Shown one piece after another: positions 50,499-53,095 of a stretch of DNA of 64,000 nt. The DNA is from Cryobacterium levicorallinum. GTDB lineage: Bacteria > Actinomycetota > Actinomycetes > Actinomycetales > Microbacteriaceae. A model generated the notes under the pieces. The model saw only the letters and a program-made list of their open reading frames with translations, did no database searches and had not been told where the DNA came from. The stretch spans positions 211,370-275,369 of the forward strand of contig NZ_SOFE01000001.1 in NCBI RefSeq assembly GCF_004402405.1, written 5' to 3'. The number at the start of each line of letters is the position of its first letter. Positions within the stretch are counted from its first letter, which is position 1. A program made the translations under genes and the position numbers.

Positions 50499-50538
50499 CC
50501 GCAAAGTCTAGCCAGCGGCGCGGTGCACCCGGCTCGAG

Positions 50539-50634
50539 CGGCATAACTCCTGCAATTTCACGGACCCGGCCGCGCGGGCCCCGGAAATCCGGGGCCCGCG
50601 CCGGGTCGACGCTCAGATTGCAGGAGTTATGCCG
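50539..50634. terminator. long compound hairpin after the DUF4397 gene
   Basis: An outer perfect 18-bp pair, 50539-50556 (CGGCATAACTCCTGCAAT) with 50617-50634, encloses a second GC-rich stem in which GACCCGGC and GCGGGCCCCGG pair with their complements around AAAT near 50586. The whole folds into one hairpin of about 96 nt. It begins 7 nt beyond the DUF4397 stop on the minus strand and precedes the methyltransferase start. Terminator or mobile palindromic unit. Confidence 0.6.
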
Positions 50635-50641
50635 GACGAAG

Positions 50642-51361
50642 CTACTTCGTGGACACCGTCTGCACAGCCAGGGCGAGCGTGCCGTCAGCGAGGCTGCCCC
50701 AGGCGTAGACGATGGTGTTGGTGCGCGGGGCGATCGTGACTTCCGCCGGGCCGAGCAGCGGCGCGGTCGTTCCGGCGGCGGCCACGACGGCGCTGATCGT
50801 GCCGACCGGCAGATCGAGCACGGCCTGCGACGGATTGGTCAGGCCGGCGACGGCAACGGCGCCGTTGGCGAGAACGTCAACGGCCGGAGCGGCCGCAACG
50901 TGGCGCACGGTGAGGCGGCCCTGTCCGGCGGCCAGCGGCTTGGTGTCATCGTTGCACAGGGTGGCGGCGGGAAGGCCGGCATCCGTGAGGTGGGCAACCG
51001 CCGTGAAACTGCGATTGGCCGTGACCGTGACTGTCGTCGAGCCGCTCACGGCGATCGACGGAAGTGGCGAGCCGTTGGCGCTGCCGCCGACTTCGAGGGA
51101 ATCTGCCGCGGAGATTCCGACGGTGTGGGTGCCGGCCGTGAGCTTCAGCGGGCCGAGCAGGGTTCCAGGCATGAAATCGGCGACGACGACGCGACCGTCG
51201 ACCGAGATGTCGAGGGTCAGTCCGGGAATGGCGTGCAGCACCGACACGGATGCCATACCCGGTGAAGCGGATGCCGCGGTAACGGCCGCCTGCGCCGGCG
51301 CGAGCCCGGCGAGTGCGACGAGAAGGCCGGCGGAAATTCCGACGGCGATGGACTTGCGCAT
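50642..51361 (-). CDS. secreted DUF4397 domain protein
   Basis: 239 residues. A signal peptide (RKSIAVGISAGLLVALAGLAPAQAA) is cut near residue 26. The mature protein has the DUF4397 pattern SVLHAIPGLTLDISVDGR followed by LKLTAGTHTVGIS, and a second related segment VRHVAAAPAVDVLANG. No lipobox or sortase motif is seen, so it should be freely secreted. The same gene order (DUF4397, anti-sigma, sigma) makes it a likely target of the neighbouring ECF sigma factor. Confidence 0.82.
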   Translation of the reverse strand: MRKSIAVGISAGLLVALAGLAPAQAAVTAASASPGMASVSVLHAIPGLTLDISVDGRVVVADFMPGTLLGPLKLTAGTHTVGISAADSLEVGGSANGSPLPSIAVSGSTTVTVTANRSFTAVAHLTDAGLPAATLCNDDTKPLAAGQGRLTVRHVAAAPAVDVLANGAVAVAGLTNPSQAVLDLPVGTISAVVAAAGTTAPLLGPAEVTIAPRTNTIVYAWGSLADGTLALAVQTVSTK

Positions 51362-51470
51362 TGCTACCTCCAGGTTGGTCGTTACGGAAGGCGGCTGTGC
51401 CTCCCTGGTAACAACTTCTCCGGTCGGGCGCGTTTCGGATGCACCACGGCGACTTATTTAGAGAAACGAC

Positions 51471-52291
51471 TCAGAGCGGGTGTAATTCGCCGCGCACGAT
51501 TGAGTCGCCGGAGTGTGCCGGGTCGCCGTCGGCGGGTTCGGCGGACACGTCCACCAGTGGGTATTGGGCGAGGTCGACGCTCGCGGGGATAGTGAAACGA
51601 CCGAAGGAACCGTCGAGGAATCCGATGCTGACCAGGCCGGACGCATCCGCTTTGAGCAGCCAGACCTCGCGCAGGCCGGTGCCCGGCGGATTCGGCGCGT
51701 CGAGGTCGACGACGACCGCGCGGCGGCCGTCGGCGGCTTGCTCGACCCGGACCGACCCGCTCGCGGTTCATCCCGGCAGGGCGTCGAGGGCGCCTTCGGC
51801 CACGACTTGCTCGGGTGGCGGGCCGGCGGTGCTCGCCACGCCGATGGCGATGCCGCCGATCATGCCGGCGGCTGCCGCGAACGGGACCCAGCGGCGGAGG
51901 GACAGCAGACGCACGGGTGCTGGTTCGACCGACGACTCGGCCGTCGGTTCGGCCGCCGCCGGGTCGGCGACCGGCGAAGCAGGTGCCTGGGGCGGGGCCG
52001 CAGCATCCGTCGCGTCAGAGGTTTTCGTGAAGGGGGGGGTGGTGTGTGCACCGCGTTGCTCAGCCCGAGTTCGGCCTGGATGCCTGCCCAGACGCCCGCA
52101 GGCGGGGTGAGCCGCGAATCGAACCCGACGGAACGACCGAGTTGCACGACCTGCCACAGGGCGAGGTATTCCCCAGGGCACTCGGCGCAGGCGGCGAGGT
52201 GGGCCCGTTCCGCCGCGCTCGCGTCGACCTCGGCCAGCGCGAGCAGGTGCAGGTCGTCCGCGGCGATGTGGGTGCCATCAAGAGGAGTCAT
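51471..52291 (-). pseudogene. anti-sigma factor (RskA-like), broken by a frameshift and an in-frame stop
   Basis: The N-terminal reading from 52291 has the zinc-anti-sigma-type helix region (HLLALAEVDASAAERAHLAACAECPGEY). At the C8 tract (52032-52039) the frame must shift to continue into APVRLLSLRRWVPFAAAAGMI, the single membrane helix. A TGA at 51768-51770 then follows LDALPG, after which the same frame runs on as TASGSVRVEQAADGRRAVVV...REVWLLKAD...GELHPL, the normal extracytoplasmic RskA domain. TGG to TGA and loss of one C restore a 273-residue protein. Start overlaps the sigma gene stop. Confidence 0.85.
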
Positions 52292-52832
52292 CGGACACCT
52301 CCAACCGGGTGCGGAGGCGGGTCAGGCTGCGCCGCATGTGGCTCTTGACCGTGCCGAGCCCCAGCCCCAGGCTATCGGCGATCTGCACCTGGGTGAGATC
52401 GTCGAAGAAGGCGAGGCGCATCACCTGTCGGGGCACGGGTTCGAGTCGGTCGATTTCGTCGCCGACCAGCACCCGGTTGACGACACTCAAACTGTCATCG
52501 ACGCGGTGTGCCGGGATGGTCGCGGCGAGTGAGTCTTCGAGCCGCCGCTGGCGACTGCGTGCCTCGTGGGTGTCGGCAATCACGTGCCTCGTAATGCCGA
52601 TCAGCCACGCCAGCAGCCGGGAACGGGCCGGGTCGAACCCACCGCGCCCCCGCCAGGCGGCAATGAAAACCTTCTGGGTGACGTCTTCGGCGTCGGACGC
52701 ATTGGCGAGCGAGCGCACGGCGATCGTAAATACCAACGGTGACCAGCGGTCATACGCCGCGGCCAGGGCGCGCTCATCACCGTCCTGAAAGGCGCGGTCG
52801 AGGGACGCGTCATCGTCGGTAGGTGCGCTCAC
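52278..52832 (-). CDS. ECF RNA polymerase sigma factor (SigK-like)
   Basis: 184 residues from the GTG at 52832 (VSAPTDDDASLDRAF). Region 2 is DGDERALAAAYDRWSPLVF to DAEDVTQKVFIAAWRG; region 4 is VPRQVMRLAFFDDLTQVQIADSLGLGLGTVKSHMRRSL. The frame is open further upstream to 53027, with cysteine- and arginine-rich residues unlike any sigma factor. It overlaps the disrupted anti-sigma gene by 14 nt, the order of sigK-rskA pairs. Without a working anti-sigma the factor may be constitutively active. Confidence 0.88.
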   Translation of the reverse strand: MSAPTDDDASLDRAFQDGDERALAAAYDRWSPLVFTIAVRSLANASDAEDVTQKVFIAAWRGRGGFDPARSRLLAWLIGITRHVIADTHEARSRQRRLEDSLAATIPAHRVDDSLSVVNRVLVGDEIDRLEPVPRQVMRLAFFDDLTQVQIADSLGLGLGTVKSHMRRSLTRLRTRLEVSDDSS

Positions 52833-53065
52833 GTGAGGGTGGGTCCTTCGGGCCGAAACACATACCGGGCAGGGGCACGGTGATCGCACTGTGAGAGTGA
52901 CAACCTCCGCGCGCACCAGCATAGTGAGTTTCCTTCGACTCGGTTGCAGTTCCCCCTGCCAGCAGAAGGGGCCACAGCAGCAAACCCGACGTCGCGTGCT
53001 GCGGCCCTCCCCTGGGCGGGAAACCACTTACTTATCTATTTCTCTCCTCGAGGGCGAAACGGATG

Positions 53066-53095
53066 CGCCCTGCGGCAATTTGCCGCTTTAGGGCG
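53066..53095 (-). terminator. hairpin at the end of gabD
   Basis: Nested pairs: CGCCCT (53066-53071) with AGGGCG (53090-53095), and GCGGCA (53072-53077) with TGCCGC (53081-53086). It overlaps the last codons and stop of gabD. There is no U-tract on the minus strand, so its role as terminator is uncertain. Confidence 0.35.

Follow-up and report, generated by a model that had tools for sequence, protein, structure and literature searches.

A disrupted RskA-type anti-sigma gene beside an intact ECF sigma factor gene in Cryobacterium levicorallinum and three of its relatives

What becomes of an ECF sigma factor when the gene for its anti-sigma factor is broken? The question is raised by a locus of Cryobacterium levicorallinum lying within the 64,000-nucleotide stretch of DNA analysed here (from here: the window). 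According to an initial annotation, this locus combines an intact sigma gene with an RskA-like gene carrying two lesions, the loss of the anti-sigma factor would free the sigma factor, and an adjacent secreted DUF4397 protein is its likely target. Here we address the reality of the lesions, their recurrence among relatives, the identity of the target and the probable state of the sigma factor.

The sigma gene and what remains of the anti-sigma gene

The ECF sigma factor gene lies on the reverse strand (52278..52832) and is intact, as annotated: it is open from a GTG at 52832 to the stop at 52278 and encodes 184 amino acids carrying only sigma regions 2 and 4 (PF04542, 5.7e-16; PF04545, 2e-12). 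Its closest solved relative is SigK (4nqw, 9.7e-19, top of 23). We name it SigK-like rather than SigK because it stays below the NCBIfam SigK cut-off (102 of the required 226 bits) and because PRK12519, likewise below its own cut-off, scores it higher (114.9). Translation may start further upstream, at an ATG at 52922, 90 bases before the GTG (CTATGCTG). An in-frame ATG upstream of the GTG occurs in 29 of 30 Cryobacterium loci, within the sequence TATGCTG in 26 of the 30; the in-frame TATGCTG is missing in the two related genomes G033 and G037. The extension that would result (52833-52922) holds three cysteines.

The 184 residues themselves contain no cysteine, and the positions aligned with Cys133 and Cys183 of SigK are occupied by E and R. 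In PMC7509140, both cysteines are reported for 94% of ECF18 and 56% of ECF19 members, and SigK proteins lacking them are described as more often paired with an abnormal RskA. Judged by residue numbers, a cysteine occurs at either position in 0 of 92 loci, nearly all of which keep RskA, so that the cysteine rule of that source predicts little here.

The RskA-type anti-sigma gene (51471..52291, reverse strand) begins with an ATG at 52291 that overlaps the end of the sigma gene by 14 bases, an arrangement found in 30 of 30 loci. It is disrupted, as recognized by a frame change, a TGA and an RskA_C match. Its native frame runs for 84 codons to a C8 tract (52032..52039), after which 59 off-frame residues complete a residual ORF of 143 amino acids (51860..52291), in which hydropathy shows no transmembrane helix. 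The RskA-like remainder continues in a different frame and is interrupted by a TGA (51768..51770), where each of the 11 aligned intact relatives has Trp. The piece following the TGA (51471..51767) matches the extracytoplasmic RskA_C domain (PF10099, 1.2e-12); in the window no single product can contain both this piece and the N-terminal domain. The membrane helix and outer domain, uninterrupted in 26 of the 30 Cryobacterium loci, are thus separated here from the anti-sigma domain.

Both lesions had been placed at the correct coordinates. The lesion in the C8 tract had been described as a one-base loss; the frame change itself stands, and a two-base gain is an equally possible reading of it. 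In the alignment with the nearest relatives the change is a net +2, the same modulo 3 as a one-base loss, and variation in the linker prevents the direction of the indel from being established. The tract had further been proposed to be phase-variable. It is the window's longest G/C run and lies exactly at the break, which speaks for a switch; it is the only run of at least 8 in the window (observed 1; shuffle mean 4.57). A switch, or a recoded gene, is nevertheless very improbable, because the TGA further along the gene would prevent full-length translation at any tract length; moreover, the other 29 loci have no G/C run of 8 within the anti-sigma gene.

The surviving N-terminal domain (52040..52291) contains the zinc-type motif H31-x3-C35-x2-C38. 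It retains H8, H31, C35, C38 and W68, which are invariant over 21 aligned domains (window included); the motif HxxxCxxC is present in 21/21, G033 and G037 standing outside this alignment. At nearly invariant positions the window departs in two of 12 cases (A55, H72). An AlphaFold model consists of four helices (mean pLDDT 79.6), for which the best solved structural match is a weak one to the anti-sigma factor RslA (Z 5.2); Foldseek alone gave an E value of 7.3. Profile matches were obtained with the anti-sigma factors DdvA (0.0026) and, weakly, RsiW (0.086), as well as with a CHAT-domain protein (0.017) through the same zinc-type motif. No RskA chain was found by profile or structure searches with the domain, and the window's own N-terminal fragment gave no Pfam match.

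Probably genuine lesions and repeated loss in one clade

The window derives from a draft genome (3.75 Mb, 36 contigs, 100% complete), and errors are common in homopolymers, which could mean that both lesions are sequencing or assembly errors in an intact gene. Frame by frame, we compared the window and 74 kb of chromosomal sequence from C. flavum. Six of 52 conserved C. flavum frames and four of 51 window frames were flagged and, judged by position, represent opposite-strand shadows, start extensions, one small frame with poor coverage and a genuinely shorter DUF4397 gene. The anti-sigma gene is covered by an opposite-strand shadow frame and was therefore left out of the filtered selection of frames. 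In the unfiltered list its frame shows a frame change together with an internal stop; the other frames flagged for both were judged to be shadow frames. A stray sequencing slip is thus unlikely, since the anti-sigma gene is the sole shared gene in which both lesion types are not explained by a shadow or a start extension.

The dN/dS of the RskA_C piece is 0.15-0.29 against three relatives, compared with 0.13-0.24 in four intact pairs. As the piece evolves like intact copies, the lesions are either young or not real, and the absence of relaxed selection fits an error as well. The collections searched hold one genome per species, and a second strain was not found in them. Against an error stand two lesions of different type in one gene, the finding that no other of the approximately 50 genes compared across the window is clearly broken, and the fact that C. 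luteum and G033/G037 carry breaks of their own in this gene. We therefore consider an error unlikely; the initial view that two lesions indicate real loss rather than a slip is supported by both the C. flavum comparison and the loci of relatives.

Among 57 Cryobacterium genomes searched for the sigma factor at E 1e-20, 43 were positive. The best 30 of these loci comprise 26 with an uninterrupted anti-sigma gene (262-330 aa) and four with a broken one, which belong to the genome of the window, C. luteum (G019), G033 (strain Y57) and G037. The break in C. luteum leaves the N-terminal domain intact, as in the window, and G033 and G037 retain some 38 codons, up to a deletion junction common to both. 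For the other 13 sigma-bearing genomes, the anti-sigma gene was called as one frame in 12, from a single match or from equal open-frame lengths of the pieces, and it is split in G008, a single contig of 83% completeness. The split frame at locus L049, C. breve ERMR7:08 (by position the same record as G008), probably reflects an error in a noisy assembly.

A clade of 12 genomes, defined as the window plus the genomes with 85-94% sigma identity, contains all four clear breaks, and among the remaining 31 sigma-bearing Cryobacterium genomes a split occurs only in that one noisy assembly. In a tree of three neighbouring genes this genome groups with C. flavum and G047; C. luteum joins G050, and G033 joins G037. 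Although its details differ, the sigma tree also separates the three broken lineages, and we therefore count three loss events. The enrichment (4/12 against 0/31, G008 counted as unbroken) has a p value of 0.004, or 0.018 if three events are counted instead of four genomes, in tests that ignore relatedness.

A profile examination that included the genome_contigs loci covered 92 distinct loci and flagged seven, comprising the four broken ones, L049, and L070 and L087 at contig ends. One further RskA_C protein is encoded elsewhere in each of six genomes; a search with the complete C. flavum protein at E 0.001 revealed no such paralogue in G000, G019, G033 or G037. A lone C-terminal anti-sigma remnant, with neither sigma factor nor DUF4397, is present at L189 (G001:C51).

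The DUF4397 protein as the proposed target

The proposed target is a DUF4397 protein of 239 amino acids with a hydrophobic N-terminus (50642..51361, reverse strand). The motif GCATCC-N16-GAGAA precedes both the sigma gene (53040..53066, reverse strand) and the DUF4397 gene (51416..51442, reverse strand). In the form GCATCC-N16-GRGAA it was found upstream of sigma in 11 and upstream of DUF4397 in 12 of the 12 clade genomes, and both copies are kept in all four broken genomes. Counting both strands, only one additional match occurs in 312 kb around the loci. There is no fixed T before GCATCC; a pattern requiring it missed the sigma promoter of this genome. The mycobacterial SigK motif starts with CCATCC. 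In each of eight genomes the pattern matched 5-11 times, cassette sites included, and the backwards pattern 1-5 times. Eleven of 12 other matches inspected sit inside an open frame of at least 100 codons on one strand, an observation that carries little weight in GC-rich DNA. The matches at L164 and perhaps at L178, just ahead of a long frame, may be further promoters; a wider regulon is conceivable, and no target beyond the cassette is claimed.

By hand count, 43 of the 57 genomes have both sigma and DUF4397, 13 have neither and one has DUF4397 alone (p 5.7e-12). In this last genome, G029 (L188, G029:C36:9000-18000), a deletion fuses the start of a sortase gene to approximately residue 30 of the anti-sigma factor and removes sigma. 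A same-strand DUF4397 gene lies within 5 kb of 72 of 80 sigma loci in genome_contigs, downstream in nine, which are the clade's own, and upstream in the other 63. Beyond the clade the genes are usually arranged as DUF4397-sortase-sigma-RskA, the intervening gene being a sortase in 4/4 cases tested (PF04203). From the 63 loci, 58 entered the set of upstream regions and six gave no start codon; GCATCC is present in 51 of 52 such DUF4397 regions, compared with five after shuffling. Co-occurrence and the common promoter motif thus support the annotated DUF4397 gene as the likely target of the sigma factor.

The clade differs from this general pattern. Its 12 genomes have a non-hydrophobic DUF4397 C-terminus, in place of the hydrophobic tail seen in 15/15 proteins examined outside it, and 11 of the 12 lack the cassette-type sortase. 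The exception, G045, has the sortase beside a second cassette, so that both cassette types stand about 12 kb apart (G045:C98:10482-27086). Outside the clade, G021 is exceptional in having DUF4397 downstream and no cassette sortase. The DUF4397-sortase-sigma-RskA cassette with a GCATCC promoter (L041-L111) extends through Microbacteriaceae and some neighbouring families, and in the window (50642-53066) it is rearranged, with the sortase missing, as in the clade. In the open-licence literature we found no paper combining DUF4397 with "sigma factor" or "sortase", nor a report of a DUF4397-sortase cassette or of stepwise, repeated anti-sigma loss in one clade.

The DUF4397 protein of the window is one domain shorter than those of its 11 closest relatives, which have 433-437 amino acids and two DUF4397 regions. 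An in-frame junction connects the front of domain 1 with the last part of domain 2, which looks like in-frame recombination between the two repeats; a collapse of the assembly across the repeat is possible. A near-palindrome with 52-nt arms (50534-50639) lies between the DUF4397 gene and a methyltransferase gene, and its 17-nt arm has no other copy in the genome.

A held or a freed sigma factor

Because the break lies in the linker that joins the cytosolic anti-sigma domain to the membrane helix, only the soluble domain with its foreign tail can be produced, and the membrane helix and outer sensor domain are lost. According to PMC7509140, the N-terminal part of RskA alone (1-85 of Yersinia, 1-81 of Nocardia) inhibits SigK; the remnant in Nocardia is still inhibitory, even though it is often listed as a pseudogene. 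Loss of the outer parts hence does not in itself free a sigma factor. The annotated claim that anti-sigma loss frees sigma is not established here, as the N-terminal domain survives and comparable pieces inhibit SigK; by this precedent, constitutive sigma activity would be a less likely state than a held sigma factor.

The reading that we tentatively prefer, giving it nearly even weight, is a genuine recent loss allele in which the soluble fragment wholly or partly holds the sigma factor. Sigma would then be severed from the envelope signal and off or low rather than freed; the proposed secreted DUF4397 target retains its sigma-type promoter. The lesions, the surviving domain, the repeated loss, the common promoter motif and the gene pairing are read directly from the sequences; we infer the stability of the fragment, its inhibitory action and the resulting off or low state. 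Several features count against a held sigma factor: the foreign, arginine-rich tail may destabilise the fragment, the domain departs from the consensus at two nearly invariant positions, and published tests concern domains to which this zinc-type domain is only remotely related.

The closest parallel is the sigK/rskA pair of Nocardia described in PMC7509140. There, too, an early rskA break (81 codons) leaves approximately the N-terminal domain beside an intact sigma gene; the break comes directly after this domain in both cases (84 native residues here), and both conserved cysteines are missing from sigma. In contrast to Nocardia, the break here consists of a frame change with a later TGA and leaves a foreign tail and the zinc-type motif HxxxCxxC; the target, DUF4397, is retained, MPT83 being absent in Nocardia; and the loss is confined to few species, while most Nocardia have theirs in common.

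Alternatively, the fragment may be unstable or inactive, leaving sigma free and DUF4397 constitutive. We regard this as possible, though less likely. It accords with an open sigma gene and with the motif retained at both promoters, and Nocardia SigK, which lacks the cysteines, is strongly active alone in the account of PMC7509140, which also reports that RskA can activate SigK. The surviving anti-sigma domain argues against a freed sigma factor in the window, as does the mere "low-on" state described in that account for SigK alone. Sigma looks truly free in the deletion genomes G033 and G037, which lost most of the domain and kept sigma, indicating that a freed sigma factor is tolerated in the group. 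Between these two genomes sigma differs by 22 synonymous and 13 nonsynonymous changes (dN/dS 0.19) and DUF4397 has a dN/dS of 0.25, ratios that indicate purifying selection. They are the highest among the pairs compared for those genes, and some relaxation is possible; both genes remain constrained, and no other finding speaks as strongly for a sigma factor that works in the absence of its anti-sigma factor.

Natural breakage of RskA is already known. The rskA mutants of M. bovis and M. orygis that drive MPB70/MPB83 (PMC7509140) resemble the present case in their naturally repeated rskA changes with sigma intact, and in a target that is a secreted or surface protein. They differ in that an altered RskA activates SigK there, while the membrane and outer parts could not be made here. 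The mpt83-sigK-rskA cassette of the same source is similar in its adjoining target, sigma and anti-sigma genes and conserved sigma-binding site; DUF4397 and a sortase replace MPT83 here, and the clade of the window has its target downstream and lacks the sortase.

A wider scenario, which we put forward as conceivable rather than probable, is that Microbacteriaceae possess a DUF4397-sortase-sigma-RskA surface cassette switched by its dedicated sigma factor via GCATCC. In one Cryobacterium clade the protein would have come to lack its membrane tail, the sortase to be missing, and the anti-sigma factor to be erased stepwise, first to a soluble remnant and then by deletion, three times independently. 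By this route an ECF sigma factor gated by a signal would become one that drives a secreted protein on its own. Intact, soluble-remnant and deleted states in close relatives provide a natural series for testing an ECF sigma factor as its anti-sigma factor shrinks, and a regulator and a promoter are proposed for DUF4397, a domain of unknown function.

On the branch leading to this genome, sigma has accumulated 11.5 nonsynonymous to 28 synonymous changes, compared with 3 to 25.5 in C. flavum (p 0.076, not significant), and may be under less constraint. It carries three private changes at otherwise invariant sites, including P74L and P158G; the intact genomes G049 and G050 exceed it with five and six, respectively.
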